64,000 nucleotides of DNA from Cryobacterium psychrophilum (GTDB lineage Bacteria; Actinomycetota; Actinomycetes; Actinomycetales; Microbacteriaceae): the NCBI RefSeq assembly GCF_004365915.1, contig NZ_SODI01000001.1, forward strand, positions 868,001 to 932,000. The letters run 5' to 3'. Both the position numbers and the translations under genes were made by a program. The notes under the pieces were generated by a model. It did no database searches. It saw only the letters and a list, made by a program, of their open reading frames with translations, and was not told the DNA's origin. This document shows positions 5,822 through 44,027 of this stretch, piece by piece; within the stretch, counting starts at the first letter, position 1, and every line of letters begins with the position of its first letter.

Positions 5822-6318
5822 ATGACCACTTCCGATACCTCGCTGATCCGCGTGGCCAGCCCCATCGGTCGGCTCGAGATCACCGCCGATGCCACCGGCA
5901 TCGTGTCGCTGTCCGTCGAACGCGAAGGCATGCTTCCCCTCGAATCGATGGCGGAGTCCCCCTCCCCCATGCTGCGTATGGCCGCCGCACAGCTCGGTGA
6001 ATACTTCGCCGGCACGCGCACCGCTTTCGACCTTCCCGTGCGCCTGACAGGCGGCACCGTATTCCAGCAGCGCGTCTGGCGCGGCCTGCAGGGGCTTCGT
6101 TTCGGGGAGGTCATCTCCTACGGTGACCTCGGCGCCGCGATCGGTCGCCCCGGATCGGGCCGTGCCATTGGCGGTGCCGTTGGCGCCAATCCCGTGCCGA
6201 TCATCATCGCGTGTCATCGCGTGCTCGCGTCCACCGGTCGCATCACCGGGTACAGCGTCGGCGCGGGCATTCCGACCAAGGCCTGGTTGCTCGGCCTTGA
6301 GGGCATCGCCCACACGGT

Positions 6319-33315: not shown

Positions 33316-33357
33316 TGGCGAGTAGCGCTTGGTGGTAGCGCCAGTCCAGGCAGGTGG
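33316..33357 (+). repeat. Solo IS21-type terminal sequence (scar)
   Basis: This segment starts TGGCGAGTAGCGCTTG and matches the terminal repeats of the complete IS21 element at 37454 and 43537 over about 40 positions before diverging. No transposase genes accompany it. It cuts the integrase gene. Confidence 0.85.
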
Positions 33358-33426
33358 TGTGTTATGAGACTCATCGTCCGCGAAGTGATGAGATTTAGTG
33401 TCCACGATGTCACGAGATAACACACC
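33356..33426. repeat. 71-bp inverted-repeat unit, probable end of another insertion element
   Basis: Perfect 10-bp arms GGTGTGTTAT (33356-33365) and ATAACACACC (33417-33426) flank two imperfect direct repeats, GAGACTCATCGTCC and GAGATTTAGTGTCC. This resembles the compound ends of insertion sequences; the element was not identified. Confidence 0.5.
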
Positions 33427-35754: not shown

Positions 35755-35967
35755 ATGAACGAGATGGATCGACCTAATCTAATCGGTAAGCCGTTCGTCG
35801 TACTTGCCGTCAGAGGGCTTCCGACCCCGAACGGTTGCAGATGGTGTGGCCTCGACGCGCGGTCGCATGGAATAAGTCACGCTCGATCAACAAAATTTCA
35901 TACTTGGGCAAACCCCACGACTGCGCAGCGGAAGGCGCGCATGCGCGCACGGGCGCAAACTAACTAA
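35755..35967 (+). CDS. Small phage-type Cys/His protein
   Basis: A 70-aa ORF containing GCRWCGLDARSHG and ending TTAQRKARMRARAQTN. Short proteins with a CxxCG knuckle, a His-rich middle and a (K/R)ARMRAR tail are common in actinophages; function unknown. ATG 35755 is used; a TTG at 35743 would add four residues. It converges on the OLD nuclease gene with overlapping stop codons. Confidence 0.55.
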   Translation: MNEMDRPNLIGKPFVVLAVRGLPTPNGCRWCGLDARSHGISHARSTKFHTWANPTTAQRKARMRARAQTN

Positions 35968-37453
35968 ATCGCAAGCTCAATGAGGGCCTGAAATGCATCT
36001 CTAAGCTGCTCGGGAACGTCTTCAGGTGACTTGACGTGCAGAGCCATAGCAACCATCACGTCAGGCTTTCCACTCGGACCGTCCAGGCTCTGTTCTCTTA
36101 GCTCAGTGAGGAGGTCCTTGCTGAACTTCTTTTCCCGGAGAGAAGCGAAGTGAGATTTCGTCCAGGCAGTCTGATCCTCGCGTGGCCATTGAGCATTGGC
36201 GAGTTGTGCCCACTGAGCGTCTGAGAAGAGGTCCTCGATCTCGTTCGGGGCACCAATGTAAAGGGCGTGCTTATCCGGGTCAAGGCCACGCTGTCTTAGC
36301 TTCCCCTCCGAGAAGACATGCTTGACGTTGCGGCTGTCGGCATCGACGAGAAAAGCGACAGAGCGGCCGTGTTTCACAAGGAAACTCGCGAAGTCAGCCG
36401 CCCCTTCGTTGTTCCGGCAGGCCCAAATAGCTATGCCACACGACTCGAGTTGTTGACCCATAGCCGTTTTGAAAAGAACCGGCAGAGCGGCAGTTTCGGT
36501 AGGGCCCTCAACCCCAACGAACAGCCGTTCGTGAAGTAAGACGGTGTTGCGCAGCCCGAGAGACGCAGCCACAGCGCCCAGGTGCTGGCCAACTTCCGTG
36601 GTATCGCCAAGTTGGTCAGCGACCGTCCGGTGATCGACATGCTTGATGTGGATAACGTCGCCTATGTCGACGCCATCGATCAAATTCATGGAATGTGTAG
36701 CAATGACCATTCTCACGTTAGGCAGTCGGGATTGGTCCCTGACAACGCGCATAAAATCGCGTTGGTGCTTGTAGTCCAAGTGGGTATCCGGCTCGTCGTA
36801 GAGCAGGACAACATCACCCGCTCCATCGAGCAGACCAGTTGTGTATTCCCATACCGCGAGCGAAACGCGCCGGGCCCGACCAGCCCCGGCCTCCCCCAAG
36901 TGAATGTCCTCGCCCTTTTTCCCCGTGACGCTTATCTGCGTCGACTTTAGCCCTGAGCTGAAACTTACCGCCGGCAGGATCTCGACCTCGCCTATGTCGC
37001 CACATCGCGCGCGAATGTGATCACGGATTGCTTCGGCATCCTTTTGCAGCTTGCCTTCAAGTTCTTCTTCGAGGCTCCGAACGGTTCCCTGCAAAGCATC
37101 GGCCTCAACATGCTTCTTGTAAGCCGTTTGCAGCGCAGATTGAATTGAGTTCTCAGCGTCCCGCAAGCCGCTTGGCTCAAAACGCTCAACTTTCGGCAGG
37201 CGCTTAACAACAGTCGACGCAAGGGATGCCCACGCGTCCTGCTGTTCGACCGCTGCGAGAACGTCCAAAGCAGCGATTAAAACCGGCTTGGCACCCTTGG
37301 GGACTTCGCTCCCGAGTTCAGCGAACAGCTCTCCGAGCTCGACCACAGTTTTACCCGCGTAGTCGCGCAAGAGCGGATTTGCGGAAACTTTAGTCAAATA
37401 CTCATAGCCTGATGATGCGCCATCAGTGGCGATCCGACGGATACGGACTTCAC
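35964..37453 (-). pseudogene. OLD-family ATPase/TOPRIM nuclease, C-terminal portion (split by IS21)
   Basis: The ABC-type ATPase second half and TOPRIM nuclease domain: Walker B VVLLYDEPDTHLDYKHQRDF with the H-switch ATHSMNLIDG, then TOPRIM residues in VGVEGPTETAALP and FLVDADSRNV. The reading frame is open up to the IS21 junction at 37453. Joined with 43538-43844, counting the 6-bp duplication once, it gives an uninterrupted 596-aa protein. OLD nucleases act on DNA in phage defence (for example GajA of Gabija); no UvrD-like GajB partner is in the window. An internal start could still produce a 477-aa fragment without Walker A. Confidence 0.9.
37448..37453 (+). repeat. IS21 target-site duplication, left copy
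   Basis: CTTCAC directly before the IS21 left end; an identical copy follows the right end at 43538-43543. Confidence 0.92.
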
Positions 37454-37500
37454 TGGCGAGTAGCGCTTGATGGTAGCGCCAGTCCGGCGAGTTGGTAGCG
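37454..37500 (+). repeat. IS21 left terminal inverted repeat
   Basis: Pairs with 43491-43537. A third TGGTAGCG-type repeat occurs just inside, near 37515. Confidence 0.93.
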
Positions 37501-37554
37501 CAGTTCTGACGAGGTGGTAGCGGCCCGGTCGGGTTGCCCGGGCCGCCTCCGGTG

Positions 37555-38322
37555 TTATTCCCAGTAGGTCTCGTGGGCGCGGGCTTGGTCGTTGCGGTGC
37601 CTGCGCATGTCGATCTGGCCGAGGTTGATGATTCGGGCGTTGTTGGCGAGGCGGTTCACGATCGAGTCCGCTGCGACCCGGTCAGGCAGCTCGGCAACCC
37701 AGTGCGCGGGTCCGGTTTGCGAGGCGATCATTGTCGGGAGCCGGTGTTCGCGGTTCGCGAGGATCGCGAACAGGTCGCTGGCGGCGTCGCTGTCGATGCC
37801 GACGGTGAGGAAATCGTCGATGATGAGCAGGTCGATGTTGGAGAGCTCGTTCAATAGCTTTTGGTGGGCGATGCCGTCGCCGCGGGCGATGATGAGCCGT
37901 CGGGCGAGGTCGTCCATCCGGAAGTAAAGAACCGAGTGCTCGCTCTGGCAGGCGCCGATGGCCAGCGCGCAGGCGAGGTAGGTTTTCCCGCCTCCGGTGG
38001 GCGAGATGATGAGCAGATTCGTCGGATCTGCCCGCCAGGCATGGTCGGCATAGCGACGCATTCTGACCGGTGTGATCCCGCGCCCCTCGCGGTAGTCGAC
38101 CTCGGCAACCGTCGCGCCCGGGATCGGGAAGGTGGCCTGGCGGATGAGTTTGTCGACCTTGTTGATGCGCCGGGACTCCAGCGCGTCGTCGACGGCGGTG
38201 AGGAAGAGCTGCTCGGGGGTGAGGGTGTCGTTGCCCTCGTCCTGGATCAGTTCCTCCAGCCGGGTCGCAACGTGGGTGACGCGAAGGGCCCGGAACTTGT
38301 CGTAATCGACGCTGGTGAACAT
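37555..38322 (-). CDS. istB: IstB-like helper ATPase of IS21
   Basis: A 255-aa AAA+ ATPase that selects target DNA and activates the IstA transposase. Walker A is in ISPTGGGKTYLACALA, Walker B in LLIIDDFLTVG. ATG 38322 overlaps the istA stop by 1 nt (TGATG). The longer open frame runs into istA without homology. It is intact, so it could serve other IS21 copies in trans. Confidence 0.95.
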   Translation of the reverse strand: MFTSVDYDKFRALRVTHVATRLEELIQDEGNDTLTPEQLFLTAVDDALESRRINKVDKLIRQATFPIPGATVAEVDYREGRGITPVRMRRYADHAWRADPTNLLIISPTGGGKTYLACALAIGACQSEHSVLYFRMDDLARRLIIARGDGIAHQKLLNELSNIDLLIIDDFLTVGIDSDAASDLFAILANREHRLPTMIASQTGPAHWVAELPDRVAADSIVNRLANNARIINLGQIDMRRHRNDQARAHETYWE

Positions 38323-39180
38323 CACTTGCCCTCCTCGCCGCGTGCGTAGTGTGAGGCGTCGCGAACATAAACGTCTGGCATGCTGTCGCGGAAAACGACG
38401 GTGCTGACGCGTTTGCGTGTCGAGGCCGCCGGGACGACTGGCCGGGGTTTCTTCGCGTCGCTGTCGATGGCCGCCATCAAACGTTTCAGGGTGGAGTAGG
38501 TCGGGTGGGCGCTGCGGTTCACGAGCTCCTGGCAGGCCGCCTCCAACCGTTCCCGGTTGTTCTTGCCGAGCCCGTCGAGGATGTTCTGGCAGGACAGGTA
38601 GCCCTGCGCCTCGATCACCTGGCCGTCGAGGATCTGCTCGATCACCGTGACTGTGGCCGGCCCAAAGCTGCGCGCCCGGTCGGTGAACCACCGCCTGGAC
38701 CACAGCCCGTCGATGTTGCGGTGCTGCGGCGGGACGTGTTCGGGCAGGGTCGAGTATTGGCCTTTGCGGCCCGTCAGCCGAGTGTGTTCGCAGATGCTCT
38801 CGTGTCCGTCGAAAATCGTCACTCGGGAAGACGTCAGCCTCACCCGCAGCAGCTTGCCCGCCAGAGCGAAGGGCACGGAATACCGTTGTGTGTCCGCGGT
38901 GACGTGGTAGTTCCGGGCGGCCTTGAGCTCCTTCCACTCGACGTCCTCGAACCCGGCGTCGGGCAACGCGCCCAGCAGCTCCCGCTCCTCAGCGTCGAAC
39001 CTCTCCCACCGGGTCGTGTCGTCGGCGCGGCGGATGTCATGGTTGATCTCCCGCACCCGCACCCGCTCCTGGATCGCAGCATTCAACTCGCTCAGCGTGG
39101 TGAAGACATCGTCCTCGAGGTAGCCGATGACGCGTTTGTTGACCACATTCACCGCATTCTCGGCTGATGCCTTGTCGCGC
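38322..39180 (-). pseudogene. istA: IstA transposase, C-terminal portion (split by RIT element)
   Basis: It contains the third catalytic residue region (KASAENAVNVVNKR, Glu of the DDE triad) and the C-terminal DNA-contact domain (QRYSVPFALAGK). The reading frame is open to the RIT junction at 39180. Joined to 42649-43392, with the 7-bp GTCGCGC counted once, it gives an in-frame 531-aa transposase. GTG 39152 could start a fragment, which would lack two catalytic Asp residues. Confidence 0.93.
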
Positions 39181-39207
39181 TTATCCCGAATTCGGGATAA
39201 GCGCGAC
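39174..39207. repeat. 34-bp perfect palindrome at the left RIT boundary
   Basis: The two 17-nt halves meet at 39190/39191 (centre GAATTC). It is built as target copy GTCGCGC, a 20-bp inner palindrome TTATCCCGAATTCGGGATAA, and an inverted target copy GCGCGAC. There is no counterpart at the right end. Confidence 0.95.
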
Positions 39208-39290
39208 TATCCCGAGGATTTTGTTATCCCGAGTTTCAGTCGCGGAGCCTGTGCGTTGGCGGCCTGAGTGGCCATTTCCTCGGGATAATC
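39201..39290 (+). repeat. RIT left inverted repeat (90 bp)
   Basis: About 81 of 90 positions match the reverse complement of 42566-42655. It contains repeated TATCCCGAG motifs in both orientations, probable recombinase binding sites. Confidence 0.93.
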
Positions 39291-39345
39291 GCGGCCTGTT
39301 TACGCTGGCTCATCTCTATCGATTTTCACTGGAGGTGAGCCAGAG

Positions 39346-40590
39346 ATGAGTGTTTCTATCAGCGATGTGATCGTGCAGGCTGACGCGGCAATTGGTCCGC
39401 TGGGACATGCGCCGTCGACGACCATGCAATACCGGTGGGCTTGGTCCCAGTTCGCGAGGTTCTGTTCCCGCGACGGCATCGAGGAGTTCTCCGAGGAGGC
39501 TGTTGCCTCGTTTGTCGCCTTCATTGCGGCGGAACACCGGGCTGGCCGGTTCAAGGACTGGAAACACAGGCTTCTTCGCAAGGCTGTTCTGGTCTTGTCC
39601 GAGGTGGCACGGACGGGCTCCTACCAGTGGTGTTTGTCTCGCCAGGCTCATCCTAATGATGCGCTGAATGCTGTCTTCCGTCCCGTCCAGGAACAGTTCG
39701 AGGTCTGGTTGCAGAGCCAGTCGGTGGCCGTTGCGACCCAGAGTTTGTATGCCACGGTGTCCCGCACCGCGTTGGCGTGGTTGCCCGAACGCGCAGTGGC
39801 TGATGCCCAGTCGATATCTGTCTCGGACGTGTCAGCGATGGTGGTGTTCCTCGGCGGCCGGTATCAGCCGGGGAGTATGAGGACGGTGGTGTCGGCGCTG
39901 CGCGTGCTGTGTCGATTCTTGGAAGAATCCGGCAGCGTCACCGGACTCTCACACGCGATCCCAGCTCAGATGGTGCGACGTGTCCGCTCGGTGGGAGTTG
40001 TCCCAGCCGACGGAATCGACGCGCTGGTGAACTCCACGGATATCTCCACGCCGATGGGTCTGCGGGACAGGGCGCTGTTGCTGCTGGGCGCCAGGACGGG
40101 CCTGCGGCCGGTGGACATCGCCGGTTTGCGGTTGCGTGATATCGATTGGGCGCAGGCGAAGATCACCCTCGTCCAACACAAAACGGGGGCGGTGTTGACG
40201 TTGCCGCTGCTTGCCGATGTTGGTGAGGCGATCGCGGACTATCTCCTGCACGGCAGACCGGTTGGTGGTGAAGACGATCATGTGTTCCTTCGCTCTCATG
40301 CTCCCTACGTCGGCCTTCGCCCATGTGACAGTTTGTATTGGGTGGCCTCACGCGCCTTTGCCCGCAGCGGGACCATCACCCAGAACGGCACGGGCCGCGG
40401 GTTCAGAGTATTGCGAGCCTCGTTCGCCACCCGGCTACTCGAGGGCGGAACGCTACTACCGGTGATCTCCGGAGCGCTCGGGCACCGGACGATCGACTCG
40501 GCGAAACACTACCTGTCCACCGATGAGACGCGGATGCGGGCCTGTTGTCTGGACTTCGCGGGCATTGCACCTCGAGGGACACGATCATGA
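39346..40590 (+). CDS. RIT tyrosine recombinase A
   Basis: A 414-aa tyrosine recombinase. The N-terminal SAM-like domain (TTMQYRWAWSQFARFC) is followed by the catalytic domain: Arg in GARTGLRPVDIAGLRLRDID, a box II with RVLRASFATRLLEGG where the usual first His is Val, then LGHRTIDSAKHYLS with the nucleophile Tyr. A GGAGGTGA ribosome-binding site precedes the ATG, partly inside an 8-bp inverted repeat (39305-39312 and 39336-39343) that could hide it. Its stop overlaps the next gene by ATGA. Confidence 0.92.
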   Translation: MSVSISDVIVQADAAIGPLGHAPSTTMQYRWAWSQFARFCSRDGIEEFSEEAVASFVAFIAAEHRAGRFKDWKHRLLRKAVLVLSEVARTGSYQWCLSRQAHPNDALNAVFRPVQEQFEVWLQSQSVAVATQSLYATVSRTALAWLPERAVADAQSISVSDVSAMVVFLGGRYQPGSMRTVVSALRVLCRFLEESGSVTGLSHAIPAQMVRRVRSVGVVPADGIDALVNSTDISTPMGLRDRALLLLGARTGLRPVDIAGLRLRDIDWAQAKITLVQHKTGAVLTLPLLADVGEAIADYLLHGRPVGGEDDHVFLRSHAPYVGLRPCDSLYWVASRAFARSGTITQNGTGRGFRVLRASFATRLLEGGTLLPVISGALGHRTIDSAKHYLSTDETRMRACCLDFAGIAPRGTRS

Positions 40591-41561
40591 GCGGCTTTTA
40601 CAGCGGTCTGGCCGAGCCATTGCGGTCCCTGCTCGAGGTCAAACACGCGCTCGGGTTGCCCTACGAGGAGTCCGAGCGGCATCTGCATCGTTTCGACCAG
40701 ATGTGTGCGGAGGACTTTCCCGGCCAGGTGGCGTTAACGAAGGAGATGGCGATGGCCTGGGCCGTCGCCCGGCCCGCAGAACACGTCAACGGCCAGATGC
40801 GGCGGATGAGCCCGATCCGGCAACTGGCCAAACACATGAATGGGCTCGGCATGACCGCCTACGTCATCCCGTCAGGAATCCCGGGAAAACAAATCCGTTA
40901 CCGCCCGCACATCTTCACCCACGAGGAGCTGCGAGCCCTCTTCGACGCCGCCGATACCATCCAGGCCACCAGCTTCGGCGGCAGGCGGGAAGTGATCATC
41001 CCGGTAATCTTCCGGATGGTCTACTGTCTGGGACTGCGTCCCAGCGAAGCCCGCACGCTGCACCGCAACGACGTCGACCTGCTTCGTGGCACCGTGAACA
41101 TTCGGCAGTCCAAGGGCCACAAGGACCGCATCGTGTTCCTGTCCCCGGATTTGCACGAGTACTGCCAAAACTATGACGCCACGATCAGCGCCCACCATCC
41201 AGATCGGATGCCGTTCTTCCCCAACCGTTCGGGAAACTTCTATAGCCATTGCACCATCGACTATTGGTTCCAGCAGCTGTTAGGCGCCGCCGATCCGCAC
41301 ATCGCGTCCAGCCCGGGTTCTCCGCCGCGCGTTTATGACCTCCGTCACGCCCACGTGGTCGAGAACATCAACCGGTGGACGGTCGCCGGGAAAGATCCGG
41401 AATCGTTGGTGCCCTATCTGAGTTTGCACCTCGGACACAGCAACACCGAAGACACCTGGTACTACTTCCACCTCGCGGCGGATTTCCATCCTGATCTGCG
41501 CCGCCTCGCCAACACCGGCATCGAAGGCGCTCTGCCGGAGGCGCCCGATGGCCTCCGTTGA
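40587..41561 (+). CDS. RIT tyrosine recombinase B
   Basis: A 324-aa tyrosine recombinase. Catalytic Arg in LGLRPSEARTLHRNDVDL, HxxR-type box in VYDLRHAHVVENI, then LHLGHSNTEDTWYYFHL with the nucleophile among YY. ATG 40587 overlaps the stop of recombinase A by 4 bp; it overlaps recombinase C by 14 nt. The tight coupling suggests a fixed stoichiometry of the three proteins. Confidence 0.92.
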   Translation: MSGFYSGLAEPLRSLLEVKHALGLPYEESERHLHRFDQMCAEDFPGQVALTKEMAMAWAVARPAEHVNGQMRRMSPIRQLAKHMNGLGMTAYVIPSGIPGKQIRYRPHIFTHEELRALFDAADTIQATSFGGRREVIIPVIFRMVYCLGLRPSEARTLHRNDVDLLRGTVNIRQSKGHKDRIVFLSPDLHEYCQNYDATISAHHPDRMPFFPNRSGNFYSHCTIDYWFQQLLGAADPHIASSPGSPPRVYDLRHAHVVENINRWTVAGKDPESLVPYLSLHLGHSNTEDTWYYFHLAADFHPDLRRLANTGIEGALPEAPDGLR

Positions 41562-42567
41562 GTTCTTCGCCCTGGTCCGTGCATGGCTGACTATCCATCT
41601 GCCGCGGGCCCGCCGGCTCAGCCCGCACACCATCCGCTCCTATAAAACGGCGCTAAACACGCTGCTGGACTTCCTGCGCGAAACCCAGCACCTCACCCTC
41701 GCGGAGGTCAGCTTCGAGGCGATCGACCGCGCCACCATCACCGCCTTTTTCACCTGGCTGCTCGACACCCAGCATCTGAGCGTGTCCTCGGCGAACCAAC
41801 GCCTTGCCGCGATCAAGTCGTTCCTGTCCTATTGCGCTGGCGAGGATCCGGCGCTGGTGTCGATCTGGTTAGGCGTCCGACAGGTCAAACCCGCCCGAAT
41901 ACCCGCGCGGGCACCGGATGGGTTGAGTATGCCTGCCGTCGACGCGTTGATCCGCGCGCCCGGACAGAACACCAACCGGGGCAGGCGAGACACGACTCTA
42001 ATCCTGCTCATGTTTGACGCCGCAGCACGGATCCAGGAAATGCTGGATCTGACTCCGGCCGATATCGACACCACAGTCGGCGCCGCCCGGGTGACGCTGA
42101 CCGGCAAAGGCCACAAGATCAGAACTGTTCCCCTGATGGATAAAACTGCGCGCCACCTGGAGCAGTATCTGGCCGAGTTCCATCCCGGCACCCCCGAAGC
42201 AGCTTCCCCGTTGTTCTTCACAATCCGGGCGGGCCACCGACAGCAGATGAGCCAGGACAACATCACCTACCTGCTCAACAAACACGCCGCGATCGCACAA
42301 CAGGAATGTCCGGAGGTCCCGGAGAAGATCCATGCCCACCAGCTGCGGCACGCCCGCGCGATGCAGATGCTGCGCGCCGGGGTTCCTCTTCCCCATATCA
42401 AGGAGTTCCTCGGCCACGCCAACATCGCGACCACGAGTATCTACGCGTCAGCGGATAACGAGATGGTGCGTCAAGCGATCCAGAAAGCCGGCAGCGCCAA
42501 CCCCGAGCTCGCACCGCTTTGGACGGGAGGCGACGATCTCATCCTCCAACTCGCTGGCCTGAAATGA
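41548..42567 (+). CDS. RIT tyrosine recombinase C
   Basis: A 339-aa XerD-like recombinase: SAM-like N-domain (RLSPHTIRSYKTALNTLLDF), catalytic Arg in FDAAARIQEMLDLTPADID, HxLRH in IHAHQLRHARAMQML, and FLGHANIATTSIYAS with Tyr. All four canonical residues are visible, so it is the most standard of the three. Its stop codon lies in the first two bases of the right inverted repeat. Confidence 0.93.
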   Translation: MASVEFFALVRAWLTIHLPRARRLSPHTIRSYKTALNTLLDFLRETQHLTLAEVSFEAIDRATITAFFTWLLDTQHLSVSSANQRLAAIKSFLSYCAGEDPALVSIWLGVRQVKPARIPARAPDGLSMPAVDALIRAPGQNTNRGRRDTTLILLMFDAAARIQEMLDLTPADIDTTVGAARVTLTGKGHKIRTVPLMDKTARHLEQYLAEFHPGTPEAASPLFFTIRAGHRQQMSQDNITYLLNKHAAIAQQECPEVPEKIHAHQLRHARAMQMLRAGVPLPHIKEFLGHANIATTSIYASADNEMVRQAIQKAGSANPELAPLWTGGDDLILQLAGLK

Positions 42568-42655
42568 TTATCCCGAGGAAATGGTCGCTCAGGCCGCCAA
42601 CGCACAGGCCTCACGGCCAGAACTCGGGATAACAAAATCCTCGGGATAGTCGCGC
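42566..42655 (-). repeat. RIT right inverted repeat (90 bp)
   Basis: Partner of 39201-39290. Ends with GTCGCGC at 42649-42655, which is the retained target copy. Confidence 0.93.
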
Positions 42656-43392
42656 GGTTTTTTCACTCTGGCCGGGACAATTGCAGTCTGGTAATGGTCT
42701 GCGAGCTGCTGATATCGGGCGTTCACGACCCGCTCCGCGTCGCCCTTATGAGTTTGGTGCGTGGAGGTCGTCGGGTTGTCCGGCACGATAATCTGCGTCA
42801 CGCCGCCGAAGAACGCGAACGCTTGAACGTGGGCGTCGAGCCAGGCCGGGGACTTCATGTCCGCGTAGGCGCGGCAGAACATCAGCCCCGAGAATGGCAG
42901 CACCGCGACGAACAAGATTGCCCGGACCACCTCGCCGGTGATGGTGTCGACGACATCCATCGTGTCGCCGGCCCAGTCCACCAGCATCGCCCGGCCCGGC
43001 TCGTGGCGGAGTACCGCCACCAGATCGTGGCTGCGGAGGTAGTCGGTGAACAGGGCGCAGAACTGCGAATACCCGTACTTCTTTCCCGCGTCTTTGGTGT
43101 CGACGTATCGGCGCCAGGCCAACAGCAACGTGAAGTGCCGGTTCGCTTTCATCGAGGCCAGCACCCGCGAGAGGTCGGGCTGGTCGTACTCTTCCGACAC
43201 TTTCCGGCGCCCGTCCGGGAACCATTCCGCGACGTCAGCGTCGGTGATCGCGACCGCCGAGGTCAGACCCCGCTCCTGGACCTCCTGCCGGACCCGGGCC
43301 ACGTCGCGATGCGAGCACCCCGCGATCTCGACAACCTCGCGGTAACTGCGCCCTTCCAGCAACAGTCCCAATATTTTTCGATAGTCCGCCAT
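42649..43392 (-). pseudogene. istA: IstA transposase, N-terminal portion (split by RIT element)
   Basis: It contains the helix-turn-helix (SYREVVEIAGCSHRDVARVR) and the first two DDE aspartates (MLVDWAGDTMD and IIVPDNPTT). ATG 43392 was chosen because MADYRKILGLL is the family start. Past 42649 the open frame continues 60 nt into the RIT repeat and ends, so any product is truncated and lacks the catalytic Glu. Confidence 0.93.
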
Positions 43393-43490
43393 GAACCCGC
43401 CCTTAGCAATGAAACGACAACGCCGTATGCGTTGTCCTTCCACAGCAGAGCAGTACACCGCCCGGCGGCGCTACCGTGTTCCCGGAAACG

Positions 43491-43537
43491 TGCTACCAAC
43501 TCGCCGGACTGCCGCTACCACCAAGCGCTACTCGCCA
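43491..43537 (-). repeat. IS21 right terminal inverted repeat
   Basis: Partner of 37454-37500. Confidence 0.93.
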
Positions 43538-43543
43538 CTTCAC
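43538..43543 (+). repeat. IS21 target-site duplication, right copy
   Basis: CTTCAC, identical to 37448-37453. Confidence 0.92.
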
Positions 43544-43844
43544 AGCGGTCACCAAGGCCCAGCTCGGTCTGTTCGACTTCTGAGAGAGCGAATACCCCTT
43601 CGACCCAGGACTGGGGCACTCGACGGCCACTCTGATTCTCCTCCAGGCCTTCCTCTTGGTTGGCCACATAAGTACGGTCGCGCTCCAGAAGCGCATAATC
43701 GTTGAGTAAGAACCGAATCGCGTCGAGGATGGAAGATTTTCCAGCATCGTTGTGGCCCGTCAGAAGGGTCGGAGCACCAATCCCCAGCTCAGGCAAATCT
43801 GCGATCGACCTGAACCCCTCTATCGCAATTCTTGTCAGTTTCAT
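43538..43844 (-). pseudogene. OLD-family ATPase/TOPRIM nuclease, N-terminal portion (split by IS21)
   Basis: It begins MKLTRIAIEGFRSIADL and has Walker A GHNDAGKSSILDAI, followed by the start of the lid region. ATG 43844 has a GGGGGG-A ribosome-binding site; the frame opens slightly earlier at a TTG. The last native codons (GLGDRCE) are joined across the duplication to VRIRRIATDG of the distal part. Without Walker B and TOPRIM the fragment cannot be active. Confidence 0.92.
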
Positions 43845-44027
43845 CGTTCCCCCCAATTATTGACACGTCTGCGTGACGTAACCCAACATATCTCTAGCTA
43901 ATGACGTCAGAGGGACTGCTCTCGAATTTGATGGATTCGCTGACGTGCTCTCCGTCAAACGCTCGCGTCTCCGCGTCGTAAGCGGCTGAACGCCCTGACG
44001 ATATCGGGGACGATTGCACGCGCCCGA

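Follow-up and report, generated by a model that had tools for sequence, protein, structure and literature searches.

A RIT element nested in istA of an IS21-family element in Cryobacterium psychrophilum, and probable sequence-directed homing with a proposed two-core attachment site among its actinobacterial relatives

The window, a stretch of 64,000 nucleotides from Cryobacterium psychrophilum (contig NZ_SODI01000001.1, positions 868,001 to 932,000), contains an IS21-family element (37454-43537, reverse strand, termini TGGCGAG...CTCGCCA) whose istA gene is interrupted by a recombinase-in-trio (RIT) element of 3,475 bp. The helper ATPase gene istB is an open frame on the reverse strand (37555-38325; Pfam IstB_IS21, 1.5e-37), although its match to NCBIfam NF038214 lies below the cut-off of that model. 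On the same strand, istA is divided into a 5' part that encodes the N-terminal region with the rve domain (42656-43392, the likely start codon at 43392 being assigned by reading) and a 3' part that encodes the C-terminal region and holds the catalytic glutamate codon (38322-39174), as delimited by flank alignments and domain searches. An istA with rve domain, an AAA+ gene istB, TG/CA ends and a short target duplication characterize the host as an IS21 element, and the NCBIfam IS21 models match it with scores below their cut-offs. The IS21 family, with its IstA/IstB proteins and TG...CA ends (PMC10122671), is here the victim rather than the inserted element.

The inserted element carries three tyrosine recombinase genes on the forward strand, which overlap one another in the order A-B-C: ritA (39346-40590, 414 aa; Phage_integrase 6e-17), ritB (40587-41561, 324 aa in its longer frame, with an ATGA overlap with ritA) and ritC (41548-42567, 339 aa; Phage_integrase 3e-27). 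They are enclosed by terminal inverted arms of 90 nt each that are 90% complementary, the left one adjoining ritA (39201-39290, forward strand) and the right one ritC (42566-42655, reverse strand). The initial annotation had already identified this arrangement as a RIT element, and the reading frames, the arms and the identities to the Rit proteins of C. necator pHG1 (30% for RitA, 32% for RitB and 37% for RitC) agree with that assignment. RITs of Cupriavidus and other bacteria have been described as three overlapping A-B-C genes of ~3.5 kb with an inverted repeat and an overlapping palindrome (PMC3414803, PMC2864759), and gene order, size, inverted repeat and palindrome are all common to the element in the window. 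The terminal palindrome, which the initial annotation lacks, is perfect over 34 bp (39174-39207) and lies at the left end. The heptamer GTCGCGC occurs at 39174-39180 and again at 42649-42655. Comparison with relatives (see below) divides these ends into host base G39174, an element-borne outer crossover spacer TCGCGC of 6 bp (39175-39180, forward strand), the 20-bp palindrome TTATCCCGAATTCGGGATAA between both cores (39181-39200), and a target-derived far spacer TCGCGC (42650-42655, forward strand); copies with swapped cores identify a second, inverted inner spacer of 6 bp, GCGCGA, the reverse complement of TCGCGC (39201-39206, reverse strand).

The insertion point is defined by four IS21 copies of the same genome (L013-L016) that are uninterrupted at the RIT site and 85-86% identical to the window flanks. 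Each istA flank was aligned to them separately, the istA pieces being left unjoined, and the two flank alignments overlap by exactly 7 bases in all four copies. The empty site is thus a single GTCGCGC at the junction, with no extra codons, and the base-exact nesting proposed in the initial annotation holds. By arithmetic, removal of the 3,475 bp leaves an istA of 1,596 nt (531 codons and a stop) and reduces the composite, 6,084 bp between its termini, to an IS of 2,609 bp.

The composite is bordered by a 6-bp target duplication, CTTCAC, read directly at 37448-37453 and 43538-43543. A second composite in the same genome (L010, 6987-13071; 6,085 bp) is 100% identical and flanked by its own 5-bp repeat, GGGGT. 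An identical second copy with a different duplication suggests that transposition of the composite as an IS21 followed the disruption of istA by the RIT. Despite the break, IstA acting in trans probably mobilized it once more, and relatives ~86% identical in the same genome could have donated that IstA. The insertion had also been called precisely datable, a view we do not share: both composite copies are identical and carry no age signal. The composite itself interrupts a gene for an OLD/GajA-like ATPase, possibly a phage-defence gene, whose pieces lie at 35964-37397 and 43544-43856. About 4 kb upstream, a stretch 88% like an IS21 end (33317-33358) is perhaps the relic of another copy.

A genome scan yielded 35 RIT loci, among them 25 with 66-84% identity across alignments of 258 residues or more; of these close loci, 24 come from records named Actinomycetota and one (L056) from a bin named Proteobacteria. 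With counts that include the window's own genome, RitC relatives were found at E <= 1e-70 in 2 of 398 genomes of the family and 2 of 394 of the class, and at E <= 1e-40 in 6 of 198 genomes of the order. With up to one mismatch allowed, nine of the 56 Cryobacterium-group genomes contain the palindrome, and a search of the window's order found it in one of 396 genomes, namely the window's own. RitC relatives were not found in IMG/VR, and a search of phage records gave no match. Within the 35-locus scan, the flank and core counts leave out loci whose contigs end at or in the element ends (L038, L043, L050, L051, L053), whose ends were unrecognised (L042, L054), whose flank was too short (L056), or which are distant or partial (L058, L060-L068). 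The draft-genome contigs of L038, L051 and L053 stop at the RIT ends, as expected for collapsed multi-copy elements. A plasmid RIT of Ca. Mycobacterium methanotrophicum (L032/L041) has two annotated recombinase genes, with no ritA among them, and its left end is unrecognisable.

Comparison of the close relatives shows that the target of this actinobacterial RIT subfamily is nearly fixed. The flank test covered 25 places, including the window and loci added from other searches, and flanks were obtained for 24, L073 and L082 possibly being the two flanks of a single insertion. IstA was matched by 35 of 37 flanks, and 22 of the 24 loci are inserted in istA, where the break falls at P-x-D | K, the codons that shortly precede the catalytic glutamate. 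This glutamate was compared with the solved IS5376 IstA by way of an IS21 related to the window's host, and it aligns there with E233, the third catalytic residue. Some IstA flank matches are weak (1e-6 to 1e-10) and the IS21s concerned distant, and the motif is nonetheless at the junction. One of the two exceptions, L059, interrupts another kind of transposase gene (rve at 2.7e-4, short of the curated threshold), where reading gives P-T-D-K. The other, L145, lies in an OpuAC-type gene that contains CAAGGC as a DNA word but in a different reading frame; the target thus appears to be recognised as DNA, not as a gene.

Nineteen elements, that of the window included, have a readable palindrome and were compared for their attachment site; in 13 of them the other end is readable as well. 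All 19 share the order target, outer core, palindrome, inverted inner core, element, and the 13 complete ones end in element, far core, target. The palindrome measures 20 bp (12 bp in L057), and the arms and palindrome halves mostly read TCGGGATA[A/G]-TCNNNN-TTATCCCGA. On the palindrome side the target is AAGGC or a close variant (AAAAG, AAACC, AAAGC etc.) in 19/19, including L145, which shows the same AAGGC word though outside istA. The palindrome adjoins ritA in nine elements and ritC in ten. With its side fixed and the orientations split in this way, it is the element that flips, and not the palindrome side. The terminal 26-nt arms differ by a mean of 0.23 bases within elements (13 comparisons) and 1.47 between elements (156 comparisons); the two ends of an element thus seem to evolve together.

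These elements also define the crossover region. Base 1 of the heptamer differs between the outer and far copies in L039, L044, L048, L052 and L150, and in all five of these informative elements the inner copy equals the far one; base 1 is therefore part of the flank, which leaves 6 bp for the spacer. Native cores were assigned by pairwise alignment to the nearest intact IS21; some values of 1.0 appear to stem from very short overlaps (L046, L049, L059 and L082 among them) and were set aside, and a BLAST recheck of nine elements with flanks of 174-300 bp upheld the native cores quoted here. The nearest intact IS21 of L034 (97%, both flanks) reads TTTA at bases 4-7, as does the far core, as opposed to TTTC in the outer core. 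L036 has a native GCGC (flanks 99.7% and 100%) that equals its far core, against an outer TTTA, and L035, whose far end is missing, has a native GCGC (99.7%) and an outer TTTT. Together, L034, L036 and, in part, L035 indicate that the element brings the outer spacer with it and that the far spacer derives from the target. This polarity, based on two complete cases with known native cores and one partial case, would hold for the subfamily. The initial annotation had taken the 7-bp repeat both as a duplication made by insertion and as a crossover region of the size expected for a tyrosine recombinase. The second view fits the 6-bp spacer seen across the 19 elements, whereas the first fails in L034 and L036, where the palindrome-side copy differs from the native sequence and the far copy matches it. 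We reject a 7-bp target-site duplication on the grounds of the native-core mismatches, the behaviour of base 1 and the BLAST recheck; the pattern of repeats is consistent with a crossover spacer, TCNNNN, of 6 bp.

The three cores of the window differ neither from one another nor from the native target, and we suggest that carried and target spacers happen to match there. More generally, outer and far cores agree at bases 4-7 in 10 of the 13 complete elements, and none of 20,000 shuffles came as close, so that matching cores are favoured or mismatches repaired. The inner core equals the far core at these bases in 6 of the 13. Even four mismatches are tolerable, since the used core of L036 differs from the far core at all four variable bases. 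L035 fits no matching rule; its unused core, GCGC, rather than the used TTTT, equals the native target. In L040, counted as a mismatch among the 13, outer and far cores differ at 4/4 bases; its palindrome flank is 87% identical to the IS21 L078, whereas its far flank, for which DNA comparison gave no match, resembles another IS21 with a protein match of 29%. This element may be a recombinant of two IS21 lineages or a misassembled contig. In two further elements the native core may differ by a single base: the nearest intact copies (95%) of L037 read CTTG where both of its ends read CTTC, and those of L149 read TTTT against its TTTG.

Genome G990 (genus of Cryobacterium flavum) holds two RITs that are 100% identical over 3,455 bp. 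The first has an outer TTTG, an inner GCGC and a far TTTG, its ritC lies beside the palindrome, and the interrupted IS21 reads K-A-S-V-E-N. In the second, the outer core is GCGC, the inner TTTG and the far GCGC, ritA lies beside the palindrome, and the IS21 reads K-A-A-A-E-N. Swapped cores together with opposite orientation are the outcome predicted if one circle can integrate via either core. The orientation of the first copy had been predicted before its region was analysed and was then found as predicted; the ritA side of the second was already visible. The empty sites, together with the pair of identical copies in separate targets of G990, imply that RITs of the window type may be mobile as units.

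We therefore favour the reading, which we consider well supported and quite probable, that this actinobacterial RIT subfamily homes by DNA sequence on the IstA P-x-D-K codons and uses a circle with a two-core attachment site. The excised element would be a circle with the junction arm, core 1, palindrome, inverted core 2, arm. Either core could recombine with the target, the used core becoming the outer one while the other stays inside, and the orientation of the RIT would be set by the core used. Crossover would begin between bases 1 and 2 of the heptamer, so that the carried spacer lands beside the palindrome and the far end receives the spacer of the target. In the window, such an insertion would have separated the catalytic glutamate codon from the istA frame before the composite moved, probably through IstA in trans. 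Searches for the exact two-sided circle-junction pattern in 153 loci and for a one-sided palindrome-arm pattern in viral_contigs found neither.

Three other explanations deserve consideration. In a phage-like integration, the 7-bp identity would be an attP/attB core, the palindrome a binding site or hairpin, and only one crossover core would exist. The three identical cores of the window, equal to the native target, and the agreement of outer and far cores at bases 4-7 in 10 of 13 elements speak for such a model. It fails, however, on the swapped cores with flipped orientation in G990, on the 9:10 orientation split with a fixed palindrome side, and on a palindrome with istA on both sides, and we consider it improbable. 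The last of these was found in genome G939 (L074/L137, palindrome at 1501 of L137), where the halves on either side of the palindrome come from different istA genes and the RIT is missing, a junction that in L137 reads as a recombination scar. A Rhodococcus RIT of another family (L116) has, by reading, palindromes at both ends (near 2587-2620 and 6118-6151), and for the scar and this double palindrome recombination at the inner site is the easiest explanation. A locus of genome G988 (L138, 1501-1544) contains two palindromes 4 bp apart between apparent transposase-gene halves, and no match to RitA, RitB or RitC of the window was found in its 8.5-kb region.

Alternatively, the palindrome might be re-made with each insertion, or perfected by hairpin (cruciform) replication or repair, the inner core then duplicating the outer. 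At bases 4-7, 10 of the 19 elements do have identical outer and inner cores, and in three more these cores differ by one base. They differ at three or four of the four bases in L034, L035, L097, L149 and L150, however, and separate insertions share a 20-bp palindrome of nearly the same sequence; as the main explanation this process is improbable, although it could still act additionally. The least likely explanation is shared descent, in which IS21::RIT composites spread as units and fresh RIT insertion is rare: the composite was copied as a unit in the window's genome, but istA targets of the relatives span a wide range of similarity, the RIT occurs either way round, a single genome carries identical RITs in two distinct IS21s, and L145 lies in an OpuAC-type gene. 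As the whole story, spread of the RIT solely with its IS21 is rejected on the evidence of the G990 pair.

The targets of other RIT families were examined in 18 plasmid RIT loci, hand-picked from 304 records and thus not a random sample. For 11 of them an end could be placed in a recognisable gene (the seven others being L121, L124-L128 and L130), and 10 of the 11 split conserved, mostly active-site, motifs. Tyrosine recombinase genes are split in L115, L117, L118 (right end only) and L123, at what we take to be the tyrosine motif or box II; the assignments of L115 and L117 are based on record annotation and reading, and the L117 piece has no Pfam hit. A YhcG/DUF1016 nuclease is split in L119 and L122 and, by reading, in L116. 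In L120 a group II intron reverse transcriptase is split at GTPQGG, and in L131 and L132 ArdC-type proteins are split at the HExxH motif. L129 splits a ParB-type gene, for which an active site is not claimed. In a second RIT family from the Cryobacterium group, an rve transposase is split at N-P-Y-S-E. RITs might generally be parasites that home on active-site codons in genes of other mobile elements, with the palindrome as a two-register module that offers one core per target class (for example, the Lys-codon and Arg-codon IstA motifs), the core used setting target and orientation. We give this broader reading somewhat less than an even chance; the loci were hand-picked, and a DNA word conserved within a gene is likely to encode active-site residues in any case, which makes the generalisation a tentative one. 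As judged from reading frames, an IS21-like pair of istA and istB apparently interrupts a second-family RIT (L151, 6634-8648). L085 and L127 have another palindrome, TTAAGCCGAATTCGGCTTAA, between cores of a similar kind and likely represent another RIT family; in L127 each end has this palindrome, within near-perfect inverted repeats of 170 bp.

RITs described earlier interrupt the tnpA of IS66, a Tn6049-like transposase gene and radC (PMC3414803, PMC2864759). In comparison with these, the subfamily of the window has its target defined to the codon, its spacer to 6 bp, and its palindrome read here as the centre of a two-core attachment site. The portions of PMC3414803, PMC2864759, PMC10214605 and PMC8138268 available to us contain no codon-level target, spacer or second core for RITs (Ricker et al. 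2013 is outside this scope), and in a table of PMC10214605 the RIT entries for target specificity and for the empty site are given as not tested. There is a parallel with the strand-biased circularizing integrative elements (SE), which also have a 6-bp spacer with the carried and target 6 bp at opposite ends (PMC10214605). That polarity is found here in two complete RIT cases and one partial case, as a shared pattern and not as membership. SE elements have four core genes, intA, tfp, intB and srap, in contrast to ritA, ritB and ritC in the window; their range is narrow and gammaproteobacterial, and the available portions of that source describe no palindrome with a second core for them (PMC10214605). 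GInts and Tn554-like elements resemble RITs in that several tyrosine recombinases or their relatives act jointly on a target site, but they consist of ginA-D and tnpA-C, respectively, and neither corresponds to ritA-B-C (PMC10214605).

The cooperation of the three RIT recombinases was called hard to understand in 2012 (PMC3414803). The comparison yields a testable anatomy in which three kinds of half-site, namely element arm, palindrome and target, surround a 6-bp spacer, and it adds two usable cores and a defined target sequence for RITs. It also presents a case of one transposon disrupting the catalytic centre of the enzyme of another, a point relevant to the ways in which mobile elements restrain one another.
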